A stretch of 64,000 nt of DNA from Nanobdellati archaeon. GTDB taxonomy: Archaea; B1Sed10-29; JAGVWA01. Of the stretch, positions 9,694 through 63,760 are shown in pieces. A program made the position numbers and the translations under genes. The first letter of the stretch is position 1; each line of letters begins with the position of its first letter. The DNA lies in contig JAGVWA010000001.1 in NCBI GenBank assembly GCA_018304505.1, positions 85,960 through 149,959 on the forward strand, given 5' to 3'. The notes beneath the pieces are model-generated. The model made no database searches, was not told where the DNA came from, and was given only the letters and a program-made list of their open reading frames with translations.

Positions 9694-11129
9694 TTTCAAA
9701 ACAGCTATTCATAATCGCAGTGCTCCTGATTTTCATTAGCGGAAGCGCAATTCGCGTGGCCCCAACTATTGTTTACGACAAGCCCCTTAAGTACGACTCA
9801 TACTATCACGTACGCGTGGCAGAACTACTTAAAGAAACCGGCAACATTCCCGAAGTTTTTCCATATCCAAAGACGGGCAGGCCCCACCTTTATCCTCCAC
9901 TGTACCACGTCCTGCTCGGGTTTATCAGCTTTGCCATCGGCCTCTCTGTTATCGATTCTGTTCGGTTGCTACTGCCGTTCATGGCGTCCATAATACCGAT
10001 AGGCGTGCTGTGGTTTGCCACAAAACGATATAATTACTCCACCACAGCCCTGCTTGCGATGTTCTTCGTCTCATTCAGCCCCTTCTTTTTAACGTCAAGC
10101 TTCGATTCGCCAGAACTGATCAGCATCTTCATAAGCATCTTTGCAATAAACTATTTTCTCCAAGAAAAGTACATGCAGGCCAGCATGCTCTACGGCGTCA
10201 GCTTCCTGTTCAGCGCACTATCATCAATTTACACCGCAATCCCCCTCGTGATTCTGTTGCTTTCAGAGAAAAATTTCAAAAAAATCGCTATCCTGCTTTC
10301 AATACCTGCCGTTACAATGGCAGCATGGTATTTGCCGAGATTTGAGCTACTGTACGCATTCGACAATTCCTTCGGCACGATCTTTGTAGAAAAAACGATA
10401 GACTTCTGGACCAAATTTTACACGCCATTCATTGTTGGCTCTGTCATCTCGGCCTTTGCGCTGTTCAATTTGCAAATGGACAGGACAAGGAAGCTTTGGA
10501 TCATCTGGACGCTGTTCTTCATCACTGTATTCTTAACGCATTTCGTGACGCCGGCGTTCCACCCCTGGCGCATGCCCATCTACCTGAACCTCGGCTTTGC
10601 ATTCCTGTTAAGTGACACACTGACACATAATCGGCACAGGCTCAAGTCCCTATTTGCGATCTTCTTCGTCCTTTCATTCTTCTTGATAAGCATGAACGTA
10701 TACGAGTCAAGGATACTCAAGCCCCCATTGCCGAATAATGAGTACGACATGATCTCGTGGATTGACAAGAGCATCCCGAATGACAAAAACGTCCTCTCGG
10801 GCTACGTGTTCTGCAGTAACTTAATGACGTTCAGCGACAACAATTGCCTCCTCGATACGTATTTTGAAAGCATTCCAAACAAGACTGCGTGGTTCGATTA
10901 CGAAAACTTCTTCTGGAACTCGAACATCCAATTCACGCAACGTGTTTTCGATAACTATGACATTGACTACATAGCGTTTTCAAGCCAGGACTGGGGGCAA
11001 GAGCTCGTGAACGACTTTGACTCAGAAAAACTATACGCGACGTGGGAGTGCAAACTCAATTGTCTTCGTGATGCCTCGGTGTACAAGCTTAATAAGCAAA
11101 ACGGCACAGTGAAATACTTAGGTGGTTAA
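9690..11129 (+). CDS. STT3/AglB-like membrane glycosyltransferase (GT-C), short form
   Basis: A 479-residue protein with many membrane segments. Near residue 35 the loop KYDSYYHVR corresponds to the D.YYH.R motif of AglB/STT3 oligosaccharyltransferases. Near residue 400 the segment AWFDYENF resembles a degenerate WWDYG motif. It is much shorter than AglB (about 850 residues) and lacks its large outer domain. It forms an operon with the upstream beta-sandwich protein (4-bp overlap) and the following paralog. It could transfer glycans or single sugars to surface proteins such as the S-layer; activity is inferred. Confidence 0.72.
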   Translation: MISKQLFIIAVLLIFISGSAIRVAPTIVYDKPLKYDSYYHVRVAELLKETGNIPEVFPYPKTGRPHLYPPLYHVLLGFISFAIGLSVIDSVRLLLPFMASIIPIGVLWFATKRYNYSTTALLAMFFVSFSPFFLTSSFDSPELISIFISIFAINYFLQEKYMQASMLYGVSFLFSALSSIYTAIPLVILLLSEKNFKKIAILLSIPAVTMAAWYLPRFELLYAFDNSFGTIFVEKTIDFWTKFYTPFIVGSVISAFALFNLQMDRTRKLWIIWTLFFITVFLTHFVTPAFHPWRMPIYLNLGFAFLLSDTLTHNRHRLKSLFAIFFVLSFFLISMNVYESRILKPPLPNNEYDMISWIDKSIPNDKNVLSGYVFCSNLMTFSDNNCLLDTYFESIPNKTAWFDYENFFWNSNIQFTQRVFDNYDIDYIAFSSQDWGQELVNDFDSEKLYATWECKLNCLRDASVYKLNKQNGTVKYLGG

Positions 11130-11145
11130 AGACGGTGATCGAAAA

Positions 11146-12615
11146 ATGAACAAGAAAATATTGTGGATATCCCTAGCATTTCTGATACTCTACTCCACGC
11201 CGCAACTACTGCGCGACGTGTACCTTGACGGAAACCTGATAGGCTTCACCACATATTTCCACGAACGCTCTGCAGAGAACCTTTTGCAGGGACAATTCTA
11301 TGATAACCTTAGCTTTGGAGGCAGGCCGTACACATACCCCCCTGGATTCCACGTGCTCCTAGCCCTGTTAATGCCAATAGGCAAATACCTAGTTCCATTG
11401 TTCGGCGCCATCGGAATAGTTGTTTGTTATTTCTTCAGCAAGCAGATAGGGCTGAGCGAAAAAGAGGCAACCCTTGCATCGGTTTTCCTTGGAATAATTC
11501 CAGGGTTCTTCTACTTGTCTAGCCACATCAATCCAAGGCTGCCGGCACTGGTTGCGCTTGTTGCGGCGTTTTACTTCCTGCAGAAAACAGAAATGAGAGA
11601 CAAACTCGCCGCAGCATTGCTCTTGTCATTTGTTTTCCTGCTGCACCCATTGGTTGGCTTCACTGGCCTTGTTTTCGGCGCAGTCCTGTTTAACAAGAAC
11701 AAAATCGCCATTCCGTACGCAATCGCCCTTGGCGCATTCGCATTATGGTTTATCCCTTTCACTTACGCCAATGGTCTTCCGATGCCGAGCGAGTTCTACA
11801 GCAACTACTCTGAATTGCAGCGCGGGGTTCAATACTTTATTTACGAAACAGGCACAGCTGGCGACAGCGTCGGCATAATAATGCTTGCCATCGCAGCTTT
11901 CGGCTTGTTCAAGGTCTCTGGGAAAGAAGAGCGGACCATTGCACGGTGGTTCGTTCTCGCCGTTGTTGCAGCATTGGTGCTGGGAAATAGGCTTGATGAA
12001 CAAATCCTGTTCCCGACAGCGATTTTGATGAGCATTGTCATTTCCAGGCATTTAGCTGACTTTGAAAAATCATTCAACCTGAATAAATTCATAGCCCGAA
12101 GCAAGTTAAAGATGCTCTTCAGCGTGTACTGCATTGGCCTTGTTGCCGCGGTTTTCATCAACATGACGACTTTCATGCCCTACCAGAATGACTACCATGC
12201 GTTGCAGTGGATCAAGCTCAACACCCCGCAGGACGCGGTCGTGGCGAGCGCGTGGGAACTGGGGCACTGGGTCACTGGAATCGCAGAGCGAAAGAACATT
12301 ATTGACGCGTATGCAGAGTATGCGCCTGAAATTGACGAGCGCTACAAGGATGTGCAGAACATCTTCTTTTCATCCGATGTTGATGAAGTGCTCCCCATCC
12401 TCAGGAAATACAACATAACATACATATACTATCGCGTAACTGAACTAAACCACTGTTCGGGCCTGCCGTTCCTGACAAGATCAGGGTACTTAGACACGGT
12501 TTTTCAAGAGGCGTCTGCTGATGGCAGATCAACAAGCTTAGTTTTCAAGATTGAGTATAGTGGTACCAACGCAAAACAAGACCTGTGCAGCTCATTAATA
12601 GCTTCAAGCAAATAG
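11146..12615 (+). CDS. Second STT3/AglB-like membrane protein with degenerate motifs
   Basis: A 489-residue polytopic protein, paralogous in layout to the gene upstream. The first outer loop has TYFHER where AglB has D.YYH.R, so the acidic residue is lost. Near residue 375 SAWELGHWVTGIAER corresponds to WWDYGHWI, again altered. The ATG at 11146 with GGTGAT upstream is preferred over a GTG at 11122 that overlaps the previous gene. Its 3' end overlaps the convergent truD gene by 12 bp. The motif losses suggest a changed substrate or a non-catalytic partner. Confidence 0.68.
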   Translation: MNKKILWISLAFLILYSTPQLLRDVYLDGNLIGFTTYFHERSAENLLQGQFYDNLSFGGRPYTYPPGFHVLLALLMPIGKYLVPLFGAIGIVVCYFFSKQIGLSEKEATLASVFLGIIPGFFYLSSHINPRLPALVALVAAFYFLQKTEMRDKLAAALLLSFVFLLHPLVGFTGLVFGAVLFNKNKIAIPYAIALGAFALWFIPFTYANGLPMPSEFYSNYSELQRGVQYFIYETGTAGDSVGIIMLAIAAFGLFKVSGKEERTIARWFVLAVVAALVLGNRLDEQILFPTAILMSIVISRHLADFEKSFNLNKFIARSKLKMLFSVYCIGLVAAVFINMTTFMPYQNDYHALQWIKLNTPQDAVVASAWELGHWVTGIAERKNIIDAYAEYAPEIDERYKDVQNIFFSSDVDEVLPILRKYNITYIYYRVTELNHCSGLPFLTRSGYLDTVFQEASADGRSTSLVFKIEYSGTNAKQDLCSSLIASSK

Positions 12616-35398: not shown

Positions 35399-35417
35399 GG
35401 GATTCGAAAGTTTATGC
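35399..35417 (+). repeat. R0: partial tRNA-Arg T-arm repeat at the array edge
   Basis: GGGATTCGAA here is identical to 10 bases of the tRNA-Arg T-arm at 38186-38195, and AAGTTTATGC is identical to the flank of repeat R2. It marks the far edge of the cassette array. Confidence 0.6.
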
Positions 35418-35489
35418 AAAGATTTATATACCCCTTCCTTCAGAATTCGTATACTCAACAAAATTAACATAACAGAAGGTGAATTATAC

Positions 35490-35771
35490 ATGTGGGAAAA
35501 CAGAATATCCGGAAGGGTTATTGACGTAGGCGCACTATCGCATTCCGACAGCCATGAGGGGGGCGCTACTATCCTCTTAGCAGGGCTGAAAAGTATGCTA
35601 GCGATCGACCGTCAAAACTGGCAAAATCTCCAAGACCTAGTTCCGGGCGGGGGACGCGATAGTGCTATATGCGCACTGCACGACAAGGGTCCAGAGATAG
35701 AGAAAGCAGCATCTGACGACAGAACCGTTGTCCTGAATCCGTTTATCGCGAACATTGGAAAAGGGCAATAG
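35490..35771 (+). CDS. Small orphan protein with N-terminal Met-Trp (MWENR)
   Basis: A 93-residue soluble protein starting MWENRISGRVIDVGAL, with a GGGRDSAI loop and an HDKGPEIEKA helix. AGGTGAA lies just upstream and TTTATATACCCC at 35420 is its TATA box. First gene of the tRNA-Arg cassette array, between repeats R0 and R1. No domain recognised. Confidence 0.6.
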   Translation: MWENRISGRVIDVGALSHSDSHEGGATILLAGLKSMLAIDRQNWQNLQDLVPGGGRDSAICALHDKGPEIEKAASDDRTVVLNPFIANIGKGQ

Positions 35772-35788
35772 TTAATTTAAACATCAAC

Positions 35789-36175
35789 ATGCAAAAGAAG
35801 GGCATGCGCTATGCATTGCCCCCCCTTTTATTTCTAGCACTCGTCCTGATTAGCGGCTGCACTGCCCCAAACACGCAGGACATCGATTACAGCACCGTAA
35901 CGAGCAAGGCAACGCAGGCTAGTGGAGCAGCACAAGCTCCACGCGTGCTATACCTCAACGTCACGGGGCTATGGTGCGGCCAATGTGATGAGCGCGTAGA
36001 AAACTTAATAGCAGCAGCCCCCGGCATTGAATCAGTTGAGGTCACGATTACTGACCGAGAAAACGAACTCGGGGTGGCGCGCGTTGTTTACGACCCCTCG
36101 CTGATTATGAAAGAGCAAATCTCTGCACTGACAGAACCGTACTCTTCGAGCATTGTTTCTGACCGAGTTCTGTGA
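35789..36175 (+). CDS. Lipoprotein with heavy-metal-associated (HMA) domain
   Basis: A 128-residue protein with a lipobox (LVLISGC, residues about 18-24) and a Thr/Ser/Ala linker, then residues about 50-120 forming an HMA fold: LYLNVTGLWCGQC (metal CxxC), VENLIAAAPGIESVEVTI, and GVARVVYDPSLI. Such domains bind Cu+ or Hg2+. Ends 13 bp before repeat R1. Confidence 0.78.
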   Translation: MQKKGMRYALPPLLFLALVLISGCTAPNTQDIDYSTVTSKATQASGAAQAPRVLYLNVTGLWCGQCDERVENLIAAAPGIESVEVTITDRENELGVARVVYDPSLIMKEQISALTEPYSSSIVSDRVL

Positions 36176-36190
36176 CAAAACCAAGGTAAG

Positions 36191-36213
36191 TGAAAAGCGT
36201 CCCCACCGGGATT
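36191..36213 (+). repeat. R1: tRNA-Arg 3'-end repeat
   Basis: TGAAAAGCGTCCCCACCGGGATT matches the tRNA-Arg 3' end (core at 38175-38191) with one substitution. It follows the lipoprotein gene and precedes the RHH/RelE pair. Confidence 0.8.
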
Positions 36214-36305
36214 TTCTCCGCAAACCAACGCGCGCTTAATAAATGCACAATAAATCAACAATAAACCTTATATACAATAAACACTGAATATACATTGGTG
36301 ATGCA

Positions 36306-36542
36306 ATGAATGTAGCTCTAGGAACCCCCTATGAAGTAATCATGACCAAGCTCATTGAAAGAGGCTATGCTGGAAACCAAACCGAGGTAATTAGACAAGC
36401 ACTCATGGCTTATGAACGCCAAGTAGACCAAGAGGAAGTTGAGCTCGTTAACAAGGCCATTGAACTCGACATGCAAGACATACGATCCAGCAAGGCGAAA
36501 ACATACAGCCTGGCAGAAGTAAAGAAAAAACTCAAACTGTGA
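36306..36542 (+). CDS. Ribbon-helix-helix antitoxin
   Basis: A 78-residue protein. An N-terminal strand is followed by EVIMTKLIERGYAGNQTEVIRQALMAYE, typical of CopG/ParD-type RHH antitoxins; the C-terminal helix and strand would cap the toxin. TATA CTTATATACA at 36268. Overlaps the toxin gene. Confidence 0.8.
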   Translation: MNVALGTPYEVIMTKLIERGYAGNQTEVIRQALMAYERQVDQEEVELVNKAIELDMQDIRSSKAKTYSLAEVKKKLKL

Positions 36543-36547
36543 TTTTC

Positions 36548-36808
36548 ATGGAAATTGAGTTTTCAGAGCTAGCACTAAAACAGCTAGGCAACATGGACAA
36601 ACATCTACAGACCTTATTTTACAAACACGCCGAGAAATTACAAAACTTGCCCCCGCGGCGGCACATGAAATTCGGCATGCCGTTCAACGTTGAAGAAGTG
36701 ACAAAACAAGCGCGCATGCTCTATGATATTGAAGAAAACACGATGTATATCACCCGGTGTTTCGCAACCCACAAGGACTATGAGAAATTTTTCACGTCCT
36801 ACAAGTGA
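36548..36808 (+). CDS. RelE/ParE-superfamily toxin
   Basis: About 86 residues: FSELALKQLGNMDKHLQTLFYKHAEKLQNLPPRRHMKF, then the core strands RMLYDIEENTMYITRCF and the end HKDYEKFFTSYK, as in RelE/YoeB-like mRNA interferases. A GTG at 36539 is an alternative start. It overlaps or abuts the antitoxin and ends 8 bp before repeat R2. Confidence 0.78.
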   Translation: MEIEFSELALKQLGNMDKHLQTLFYKHAEKLQNLPPRRHMKFGMPFNVEEVTKQARMLYDIEENTMYITRCFATHKDYEKFFTSYK

Positions 36809-36816
36809 AAAATAAG

Positions 36817-36843
36817 TGAAAAGCGTCCCCGCCAAGTTTATGC
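36817..36843 (+). repeat. R2: tRNA-Arg 3'-end repeat
   Basis: TGAAAAGCGTCCCCGCC is identical to the matching part of the tRNA-Arg end; downstream AAGTTTATGC is shared with R0. It separates the RHH/RelE cassette from the HicAB cassette. Confidence 0.8.
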
Positions 36844-37074
36844 TTTAGAGAAAAAAACCTGTTCTAAAATATCAGCTTGCTTTAAAATGCTCTTAAAGGT
36901 CTTCCGTGGCAACTGGCCCTTTTTGTCAGGCACAACCGCTGTTAACTTAACTTCACCCTAGAATTTAATAAGGCATACAGGGCTTCCCTTGCGCCGTATT
37001 GGTGAGAATCCGAAGTTGTTGCACAGAATCTTGAGAACGTCATGCCCTGACAACGGTTTTCGCTTCTGCGACAT
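36838..37074 (-). pseudogene. hicA: HicA toxin pseudogene (amber stop and His loss)
   Basis: Downstream of hicB on the minus strand, the frame from ATG at 37074 reads MSQKRKPLSGHDVLKIL, then RRKGSPVCLIKF, an in-frame TAG at 36958-36960, then GEVKLTAVVPDKKGQLPRKTFKSILKQADI. This is HicA, but the catalytic His position is Pro and an amber codon splits it. Start overlaps the end of hicB by 35 bp. The toxin is almost certainly dead, while the antitoxin frame is intact. Confidence 0.78.
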
Positions 37075-37306
37075 CGCTTCCCCCCTCCCGCGCAAGGTTT
37101 ACCTTGACCTTTATTGGGGGGTTTTCCTCATAGTATACTGAAAGTGCTTCTTCAAATGCCTTTACAGCTTCTTGTTTTGTATCGCCATAACTGCTGACGT
37201 GGGTCACGGGATCTGTCACTACCCAGACCGCACCTTCTTTCTCGATCTCGATTTTTCTCCTCTCAATCTTGTTGAATTGAATTTCAACAGTTTTTAGAGC
37301 CATCAT
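37040..37306 (-). CDS. hicB: HicB-family antitoxin
   Basis: About 88 residues: IEIEKEGAVWVVTDPVTHVSSYGDTKQEAVKAFEEALSVYYEE matches the HicB partial RNase-H-like fold (two strands, helix with EA..A). The ATG at 37306 lies after a G-rich leader; an in-frame ATG at 37342 is less likely. Reads toward the HicA remnant. Confidence 0.78.
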   Translation of the reverse strand: MMALKTVEIQFNKIERRKIEIEKEGAVWVVTDPVTHVSSYGDTKQEAVKAFEEALSVYYEENPPIKVKVNLAREGGSDVAEAKTVVRA

Positions 37307-37410
37307 ATTTATTGCCCCCCCTGCGTTAATAAACCTTGGCATAACTTATGACTGGCTTTGCTTATAACGATTTTGCCACAGGAGATAGTTTAAACTGGTT
37401 TAAACCAGAA

Positions 37411-37437
37411 TGAGTAAAAAGCGTCCCCGCCGGGATT
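37411..37437 (+). repeat. R3: tRNA-Arg 3'-end repeat
   Basis: The 17-base core GCGTCCCCGCCGGGATT at 37421-37437 is identical to the tRNA-Arg 3' end core. It lies between the HicAB cassette and the wHTH/RelE cassette. Confidence 0.85.
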
Positions 37438-37529
37438 CCATTGATGATGTGAAATGACACCAACCTTTATATACGAGTTAATACAAAATAGTTATTAAGT
37501 AATATCAATTCATGGGGGGGTAATGTAAA

Positions 37530-37823
37530 ATGGCAGGGCACGGGCAAACCGTAATGATACAAAAGCAGATGGTGCACCCATCACCGACACTGAATACAGT
37601 AATAATGGTCGAAGAAACATTGAAGAACATGCCTGGAAGCGTTATGAAGGTATCAGATCTCAAACGGGCACTACCAAAAAAGGTTAACCACAACGCCCTT
37701 ATGGTGATTTTAGAATACTTAGACATAAGCAACAAAATCTACATCGGTGTAAAGGGTATCACCTGGCTAGGAGAACCAAATAAGAGGCTACAACGGGCCA
37801 TAGATACAGGTTTCGAACTATGA
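37530..37823 (+). CDS. wHTH antitoxin-like protein
   Basis: A 97-residue protein with a winged-helix pattern (PGSVMKVSDLKRALPKKVNHNALMVILEYLDISNKIYIGVKGITWL). Four-base overlap with the downstream RelE-like gene (ATGA) marks a TA operon. TATA TTTATATACG near 37463. Confidence 0.72.
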   Translation: MAGHGQTVMIQKQMVHPSPTLNTVIMVEETLKNMPGSVMKVSDLKRALPKKVNHNALMVILEYLDISNKIYIGVKGITWLGEPNKRLQRAIDTGFEL

Positions 37824-38167
37824 AAACAACAAGGGTCGTTTTTTCAGATGAAGCAGAGGAAGTCTACAAATATCTAAATGTGCAGGCTAAGAAATCAAAA
37901 ATAGAAGCCAGCATCTTAAGGGCCATCAAAAACAAATCAGAACTCATAAAAGCTAATCCCCAATACGGCGAGACTATAGCTAAAAGCAAAATACCTGAAG
38001 ACTACAAAATCAAGTACGATGTTAAAAGCCTGTACTGGGTTCCCCTGCCAAATTTTTGGCGCATGTTTTACACGCTTTCCAAAAATGGAGAAATAGAAAT
38101 CATAGCCTTTGTTCTAGATTTTCTTGACCACAAACAGTACAATAAGAAATTTGGATACAAAAGTTAG
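37820..38167 (+). CDS. RelE-like toxin
   Basis: A 115-residue protein: VVFSDEAEEVYKYLNVQAKKS, helix pair, then IKYDVKSLYWVPLPNFWRMFYTLSKNGEIEIIAFVLDFLDHKQYNK, the RelE-type strand core with an aromatic/Arg face. Ends 7 bp before repeat R4, which is the tRNA-Arg 3' end itself. Confidence 0.72.
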   Translation: MKTTRVVFSDEAEEVYKYLNVQAKKSKIEASILRAIKNKSELIKANPQYGETIAKSKIPEDYKIKYDVKSLYWVPLPNFWRMFYTLSKNGEIEIIAFVLDFLDHKQYNKKFGYKS

Positions 38168-38174
38168 CAAAGAA

Positions 38175-38191
38175 GCGTCCCCGCCGGGATT
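38175..38191 (+). repeat. R4: core repeat at the genuine tRNA-Arg 3' end
   Basis: GCGTCCCCGCCGGGATT is the complement of the tRNA-Arg T-stem 3' strand, acceptor 3' strand and discriminator. It is the probable donor of copies R0-R3. Confidence 0.85.
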
Positions 38192-38399
38192 CGAACCCGG
38201 GTCTCAGGCTCCGCAAGCCCATATTCTATTTGCCCTACAGTGCCTGGTTTGGAACAGCTCCATTGCGAAGCAATGGGGCGAATCTGCTTTTCTACAGCAA
38301 ATTAAAGATTTACTGAGAAATCGAAAAAGCTTTGCTTTTTCGTATTTCCCCAGGCTTTTGCAGTTGCAAAAGGCTGTATCCAGGCTATACTACGGGGAC
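38176..38399 (-). tRNA. tRNA-Arg(GCG) with about 150 nt of hairpin inserts
   Basis: Acceptor GTCCCCG/CGGGGAC at both ends, T-arm CCGGG TTCGAAT CCCGG, discriminator G. The anticodon arm GGGC TTGCGGA GCC gives GCG. About 150 nt lie between the D-arm and the anticodon arm, filled with perfect hairpins at 38260-38276 (7-bp), 38322-38342 (9-bp) and 38355-38372 (8-bp). One likely insert sits in the D-loop between two AGCCTGG copies, another before the anticodon stem. Exact exon joins are uncertain; isotype is likely. Confidence 0.72.
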
Positions 38400-39971: not shown

Positions 39972-40152
39972 ACTAATGAACCTCTTGTTATTTTTGCTGA
40001 TCGGCCGTGCTTTGATGTTGCTTTGTTGCAGTTTTGCCGATTTTGCATGAATTATCCCATGGCGGTTTATAAACCTTTCGCTGGTTTAAACTAGTGTAAA
40101 CTGGATAACGTTGCAAAATCTATATATGTTTCATGAGGCATAACTTAAAAGG

Positions 40153-63471: not shown

Positions 63472-63575
63472 GCAGGGATGCCGGAGCGGAAAACGGGCAG
63501 GACTTAAGCTTACGTCATTGTAATGAGAAATCCTGTGACTTAGTGTCTACGAGGGTTCAAATCCCTCTCCCTGCA
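63472..63575 (+). tRNA. tRNA-Leu(TAA) with a 21-nt intron
   Basis: Acceptor GCAGGGA/TCCCTGC, discriminator A. Anticodon stem CAGGA/TCC TG, anticodon TAA at 63505-63507, intron 63509-63529. A long variable arm (type II) follows. T-arm GAGGG TTCAAAT CCCTC. Confidence 0.92.
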
Positions 63576-63760
63576 TCAGCCTTTCTCGAAACGAGAAAGC
63601 CTGGGGAAAGAAGATCCGCACCGTTGCAAAGCAACGGGACAGCAAACGCCCATATGCTAATTTGGGCGTTCCCAAATCCCGCTCCCTGCATCGCAACAGT
63701 TTCGGCTGTTGCATCAGCGAAGCACTGCATTCGGCTGCGCCGAAGCAGAGCGGTTCTTTG
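63576..63760 (+). repeat. Hairpin array with duplicated tRNA-Leu 3' end
   Basis: At 63673-63690 an 18-base copy matches 17 of 18 bases of the tRNA-Leu 3' end (63558-63575). Hairpins around it: CTTTCTCG/CGAGAAAG (63581-63599), CCGTTGC/GCAACGG (63621-63637), GCAACAG/CTGTTGC (63693-63712), TTCGGC/GCCGAA (63730-63744). Sits between tRNA-Leu and VapBC. Confidence 0.75.

Follow-up and report, generated by a model that had tools for sequence, protein, structure and literature searches.

Toxin-antitoxin modules bracketed by copies of gene 3' ends in a Nanobdellati archaeon and other archaea

How chromosomal toxin-antitoxin (TA) pairs move when no transposon or integrase lies nearby is a long-standing open question. 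We have analyzed a stretch of 64,000 nucleotides (hereafter the window) from the contig JAGVWA010000001.1 of a Nanobdellati archaeon (assembly GCA_018304505.1, positions 85,960 to 149,959), in which small modules, most of them predicted TA pairs, are separated by repeats of a tRNA-Arg 3' end. An earlier note on this DNA had read the locus as a step-wise addition of modules at one tRNA 3' end. Our analysis agrees with this reading: the repeats are unique to the locus, two TA pairs lie between them, the borders of the modules are tight, and the same structure occurs at a tRNA-Phe gene of this genome and at a tRNA-Glu gene of another genome. We consider that minimal TA cassettes were probably inserted serially at gene 3' ends with a long duplication of the target, a reading in which our confidence is moderate.

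The target of the insertions is a tRNA-Arg gene with the anticodon GCG on the minus strand (38177-38399), identified with Rfam, ARAGORN, and folding. Its D-arm carries a hairpin-rich insertion of about 145-150 nucleotides (folding z=-5.0), and because of this insertion automatic finders overlook the gene or score it just below threshold. In the unedited sequence the Rfam tRNA score for 38176-38244 is 28.1 bits; ARAGORN reports tRNA-Arg(gcg) after removal of the insertion, confirming the earlier placement of the real tRNA end in the copy that we call R4. The 19-mer AAGCGTCCCCGCCGGGATT matches at 36195 (one mismatch), 36821 (three mismatches), 37419, and 38173 (no mismatch at either), where shuffled sequence is expected to give 0 matches, and no further match exists in the whole 917-kb assembly. 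These represent four tRNA-Arg 3'-end copies of 19-20 bp, each with a common trailer, at 36187, 36814, 37411, and 38173. The trailer next to the core has the form (T/A)AAGTGAAAA or similar, for example TAAGTGAAAA, and since all four copies have it in common, the repeat unit is about 27-33 bp long. R4 (38164-38191, minus strand) is the genuine tRNA 3' end AAGCGTCCCCGCCGGGATTC with its trailer and flank, and overlaps the stop codon of a RelE gene. The others are displaced 3' ends with trailers on the same strand: R3 (37410-37438) is identical to R4 over 20 bp, R2 (36814-36839) has three mismatches in its core, and R1 (36187-36213), the outermost verified copy, has one. When the copies were aligned with their flanks, R1 and R2 were identical over 18 bp. 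The earlier note had counted a fifth copy, R0, at 35399. We dropped it, as only GGGATTCGAA (10 bp) is common, it comes from a different part of the tRNA, and the match is indistinguishable from chance (estimated p about 0.02-0.05). Therefore, there are four copies, of which three are displaced.

The window carries two predicted TA pairs of the RelE/ParE superfamily, in each of which the toxin gene overlaps a small antitoxin gene. The newest cassette, next to the tRNA, consists of a winged helix-turn-helix (wHTH)-type antitoxin (37530-37823, plus strand), an open reading frame (ORF) with homologous pairs at 80 archaeal loci, and a RelE/ParE-fold toxin (37820-38167, plus strand). The AlphaFold model of this toxin (predicted local distance difference test, pLDDT, 83) has its best PDB matches with PfiT and ParE toxins, and its relatives match Pfam ParE_toxin. 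The second pair consists of a ribbon-helix-helix (RHH), ParD-like antitoxin (36306-36542, plus strand; NCBIfam TIGR02606, E=2.6e-5), whose homolog in another genome (G013) matches Pfam ParD, and a RelE-fold toxin (36539-36808, plus strand; pLDDT 85), for which the best PDB matches are YoeB, YafQ, and RelE, and which has a 57% identical homolog in G013. The earlier note had named the same two pairs as RHH/RelE and wHTH/RelE. Between R2 and R3, a gene at 37040-37342 lies on the minus strand, opposite to the other cassettes. It had been called HicB; its product matches DUF7387 (Pfam E=9e-6) and also PHD_like (0.0045), and as this support is weak, we consider a HicB-type antitoxin probable only. 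Left of R1, the region 35490-36175 (plus strand) contains a 93-residue ORF with no assigned family and a 128-residue lipoprotein-like ORF with a weak HMA domain. Since R0 is invalid, this cassette of an MW protein and an HMA-like lipoprotein has no verified left border. The modules stop near the repeats, as had been noted: the HMA-like ORF stops at 36175 and the repeat lies at 36187, the RHH-paired RelE stops at 36808 with the repeat at about 36814, and the wHTH-paired RelE stops at 38167 with the repeat core at about 38171.

A dispersed element of 46-66 bp (GTTTAAACCAGTTTAAAC ... TGGCAAAATCGTTATAAGG) occurs in the window at 37341-37406 and 40081-40126, with further copies on other contigs (C14:55034, C5:36024, C11:779, C6:324, and C2:4538). 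It sits upstream of the HicB-like gene and of other small genes, PIN genes included, and looks like a common promoter or operator.

The same kind of scar was found elsewhere in this genome. We scanned 352 kb around tRNA genes and related sites for direct repeats with a score of at least 17 that lie 300-2500 bp apart. This gave 21 unmerged pairs, versus 0 in ten Markov shuffles; most bracket small modules and a few are paralogous coding sequences. The repeats in this genome are 20-118 bp long. Copies of a tRNA-Phe 3' end flank a DUF4258/MqsA-like pair (L015; L, G, and C numbers are our handles for loci, genomes, and contigs), two 24-bp copies of a gene 3' end flank a HEPN/MNT module (L029), 99-bp identical copies of a gene 3' end enclose two ORFs of unassigned family (L022), and in L031 a vapC end is duplicated over 118 bp with a RelE-like pair inside. 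About 15 bp past the 3' end of the 23S rRNA gene begins an array that includes RHH/PIN and nucleotidyltransferase/HEPN-like pairs (L013). Two candidate borders were rejected: the 18-24-bp repeats of L030 mark adjacent paralogous PIN genes, and the L015 repeat at 2671-2895 lies inside paralogous coding genes. In the L013 region, the archaeal 23S rRNA gene also contains a group I intron at 8721-8980 on C15 (Rfam E=1.5e-15).

We then turn to relatives of these pairs elsewhere. For the wHTH/RelE toxin, relatives were collected at 80 loci in DPANN and other archaea, of which 77 were testable, and 15 of the 77 are bracketed by a direct repeat of 19-107 bp. One copy is upstream of the antitoxin, and the other is mostly no more than tens of bases away from the toxin stop codon (median about 12 bp). 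Bracketing was seen in 2 of 851 control windows of the same geometry (0.2-0.35% across the controls overall) and in none of 77 reversed windows. The unrelated RHH/RelE pair behaved similarly, with 7 of 25 relatives bracketed, or 6 of 24 without the locus that had prompted the test. Allowing 15 bp of slack, applied alike to the null, a repeat copy coincides with the 3' end of a neighbouring protein gene in 11 of 23 bracketed pairs (null 14.7%, P=1.7e-4) and with a 5' end in 1 of 23; a stricter overlap criterion gave 5 of 23. The named targets include genes for an aspS-type tRNA synthetase, lspA, a RimK-like ATP-grasp protein, an exosortase-like protein, and an ERCC4 nuclease, and other copies match the ends of tRNA-Glu, the class I lysyl-tRNA synthetase gene (lysS), and guaA. 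Considering that a gene-end scar surrounds about a fifth to a quarter of the related TA pairs, it seems that these pairs travel as minimal cassettes that have neither a transposon nor an integrase of their own.

Two further loci in these genomes have a related layout. In one genome (G029), contig C10 carries two TA pairs punctuated by the guaA 3' end (PPGTIEWE), which is present there in two copies (L077/L056), and contig C41 (L199) has an intact guaA with a slightly different end and no TA pair after it. In another (L059, G015:C54, 3400-7300), TA pairs and an AAA ATPase are separated by a repeat of 21-73 bp that occurs five times and encodes the C-terminus of an antitoxin-like gene (LDVKSLLERVKKRWGE), giving a longer array in the same style.

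Two further explanations were weighed. Repeats might be regulatory DNA, such as promoters, operators, or terminators, common to adjacent TA operons, or might come from tandem duplication. A TA promoter does lie inside some repeats (L047, L075), and the dispersed GTTTAAACCAGTTTAAAC element precedes several TA-like genes here. However, the upstream window of one locus matched the downstream window of another in 0 of 609 comparisons, which led us to reject shared TA promoters as the source of the repeats; at each site the repeats match the local host gene, there is one empty site, and the genes on either side of the 57-bp repeat at L047 are only about 40-45% identical. We regard this explanation as very improbable. 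As most of the genomes compared are draft metagenome assemblies, the repeats might also be an artefact of assembly, but the pattern is present in over 20 independent assemblies, including the single-contig 1.24-Mb chromosome of GW2011_AR10 (G037, L194), the repeat copies have diverged, and their flanks are unique, so that an artefact is hardly credible.

The earlier note had proposed to look for gain or loss of cassettes in related genomes. The variation that we found concerns two loci other than tRNA-Arg. In G013, two copies of a membrane-protein gene end, each about 33 bp long, flank the RHH/RelE pair; the congener G012 has the same gene neighbours, a single copy, and no TA pair, and thus represents an empty site. 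At the end of the ERCC4 gene, identical 57-bp repeats precede the two wHTH/RelE pairs of G012, which are about 40-45% alike. In G016 a 54-bp copy accompanies a VapB/ParE pair at this gene end, and in G013 no TA pair is present there. Separately, a sequence of about 32 bp from the L047 region (10588-10626) occurs at many sites in G012 and G013.

The earlier note had found no integrase in the window and proposed a genome-wide search for a tyrosine recombinase. This search detected none, nor any serine recombinase: Phage_integrase, Resolvase, and Cas1 have no detectable match in this 93%-complete, 917-kb genome. Integrases, even as remnants, were also undetected in G011, G015, and G016, which have bracketed TA pairs as well, as were Resolvase and Cas1. 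In contrast to a casposon or Cas1 insertion, Cas1 (PF01867) matched nothing in this genome, nor in most members of the phylum, including those with bracketed TA pairs. The modules thus have no detectable link to an integrase, resolvase, or Cas1, insertion sequence (IS) transposases not having been searched for.

These results have to be weighed against the possibility that larger integrase-bearing or helper-dependent elements repeatedly entered tRNA and gene 3' ends, and that everything but the addictive TA pair was later deleted between the attachment (att) sites. The 3' ends of tRNA genes and conserved protein genes are classical integrase targets; the repeats at tRNA-Arg have common borders, synonymous divergence between copies fits an att site borne by the element, and several related genomes encode Phage_integrase. 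On the other hand, neither integrase nor remnant was detected in the four genomes named above, and a scan of IMG/VR for the RelE family confirmed no TA homolog. Moreover, the modules are uniformly cut down to a promoter and two genes with the repeat a median of about 12 bp from the toxin stop codon, and about 15 different target genes would demand many integrase specificities. We consider this explanation unlikely on the whole, but a helper integrase that acts in trans, or the reduction of larger elements to their TA pair, is the strongest rival to serial cassette insertion, especially for the tRNA-Arg array.

In terms of where the second copy comes from, the differences between copies are informative. 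We compared them with a dead-copy model in which selection on the gene is taken into account and the displaced copy is expected to decay regardless of coding. At the ERCC4 gene of G016, 12 of the differences between the copies are synonymous and 2 non-synonymous (P=4e-4), and the lspA copies show 9 and 2, respectively (P=0.006). Taken together, ten pairs of coding copies show 34 synonymous and 24 other changes, whereas 21.8 synonymous changes are expected if a dead copy decays (P=9e-4). Two older duplications thus differ mainly at synonymous sites, and one copy was therefore probably imported: at ERCC4 and lspA, judged from the sequences, it was probably the functional gene end of another genome. 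The earlier idea that each module brings its own attachment site gains indirect support from these two loci, neither of which is the tRNA-Arg locus.

Alternatively, the copies may reflect plain target-site duplication by a transposition-like event or a staggered break, with no imported gene end and with differences that arose by later decay. Identical or near-identical copies at L075 (107 bp), L022 (99 bp), L029 (24 bp), and L047 (57 bp), the purely amino-acid-changing differences at L057 and L129, and the single-copy empty site in G012 would all be expected in this case. However, the synonymous excess at ERCC4 and lspA rejects a dead, decaying copy there, the repeat length ranges from about 17 to 118 bp, and the ends of the cassettes, by eye, seem to share only the toxin stop codon. 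Accordingly, we find plain duplication rather doubtful as a general account.

Serial cassette insertion, of which the tRNA-Arg locus would be one case in a process common to these archaea, would then proceed as follows. Small modules, mostly TA pairs, would join the tRNA-Arg 3' end one by one, and each insertion would leave a displaced copy of the last 20-30 bp or so of the tRNA plus trailer, while the end of the gene stays intact. The minimal cassette would comprise a promoter, an antitoxin, and a toxin, ending a few bases from the toxin stop codon, and could enter a tRNA or protein gene at its 3' end, leaving a long, variable duplication of that end (about 17-118 bp). As the copies in the two older cases differ mainly at synonymous sites, we infer that the arriving DNA already bears a homologous gene end and joins there by recombination. 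Insertions at 3' ends may survive because the host gene remains whole, and the modules may be retained because loss of a TA pair costs the cell. More tentatively, TA pairs of DPANN archaea could be true mobile cassettes using an uncharacterised integrase-independent route, in which the carried 3' end recombines with that of a new host genome and replaces it, many target genes can be switched between, gene 3' ends as a class serve as attachment sites, and arrays of addiction modules accumulate; we see this broader view as possible rather than likely.

Several observations weigh against serial cassette insertion as we have outlined it. The borders of the four tRNA-Arg copies almost coincide, as would be expected of a site-specific recombinase more than of random capture, and the genomes are 85-93% complete, so that an integrase could have been missed or could have belonged to a visiting element. 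The empty site and the variation between genomes come from loci other than tRNA-Arg, the closest genomes compared being of the same order, and three quarters to four fifths of the relatives of the TA pairs have no detectable repeat. The argument from synonymous changes leans mainly on two loci, and the amino-acid changes at L057 and L129 are what target duplication followed by decay would give; this opposite pattern possibly indicates more than one route or different ages.

Among known systems, restriction-modification systems are reported to insert with long, variable target duplications (Nobusato 2000, Furuta 2010, via PMC3874152, PMC3031569). The resemblance lies in addiction-type modules, no linked mobile element, and long variable target duplications on the order of 100 bp, and the differences lie in the DPANN-type archaeal hosts, targets that are mainly gene 3' ends including tRNA, and tandem stacking. 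The cargo also differs, being type II TA pairs and HEPN/MNT here and RelE-type in the window. Two marks of restriction-modification insertion, a long variable duplication and a single-copy target in a relative (G012), were found here, while restriction-modification cargo was not. Additive islands in streamlined bacteria show repeats of the last 20 bp of tRNA-Lys in Methylopumilus (PMC10872708), and partial tRNA repeats at inserted cassettes are described for Actinomarinales (PMC7771536). In these islands, as here, direct repeats of a tRNA 3' end recur between cassettes. The bacterial islands span 330 bp to 42 kb with metabolic or unassigned cargo, whereas the cassettes here are archaeal TA pairs of about 0.6-0.8 kb and use protein-gene targets too. 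Tycheposons likewise integrate beside a tRNA gene, but as described in PMC10872708 they measure 4-200 kb and have a tyrosine recombinase, and we found neither a recombinase nor large cargo.

The earlier note had likened the logic of the locus to an integron. Integrons, which depend on an integrase, occur in archaea too (PMC9668308), and they resemble the present locus as arrays of small, mostly promoter-bearing cassettes with short repeats between them. Here, unlike in integrons, no integrase was detected, the repeats correspond to a host gene end, and the orientation of the cassettes is not fixed, the HicB module being reversed. The analogy is weak because of these points and because the process is tied neither to one site nor to tRNA, protein-gene 3' ends serving equally. 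A full-text literature search, which left most subscription journals outside, found no account of archaeal TA cassettes bracketed by copies of gene 3' ends.

These gene-end duplications date and orient single insertions, supply empty sites, and predict which genomes and gene ends are worth examining. They also suggest that addiction modules accumulate in small genomes of archaea, which are otherwise under pressure towards gene loss, at places where insertion spares the host gene.

The tRNA genes of this genome showed two further features. First, a hairpin-rich family of sequences of about 100-150 bp occurs in the window at 38207-38365 and 63590-63700, and in L020 (about 10980-11160; C8:39980-40160) and L029 (5370-5530). 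Members are found inside the tRNA-Arg D-arm and in the space that separates tRNA-Leu genes from a 20-bp repeat of the gene's own 3' end; these sequences are possibly small mobile elements of tRNA genes. The tRNA-Leu gene at 63472-63575 of the window has a copy of its 3' end about 98 bp downstream, the tRNA-Leu gene at C16:5287-5369 has one at +105, and the tRNA-Phe gene at C5:16650 has one at +149. Second, Leu, Lys, and Arg tRNA genes carry insertions in the region of the D-loop (L029 5245-5370, C16; L015 6180-6300, C5:16186), which is a non-canonical location for tRNA introns.

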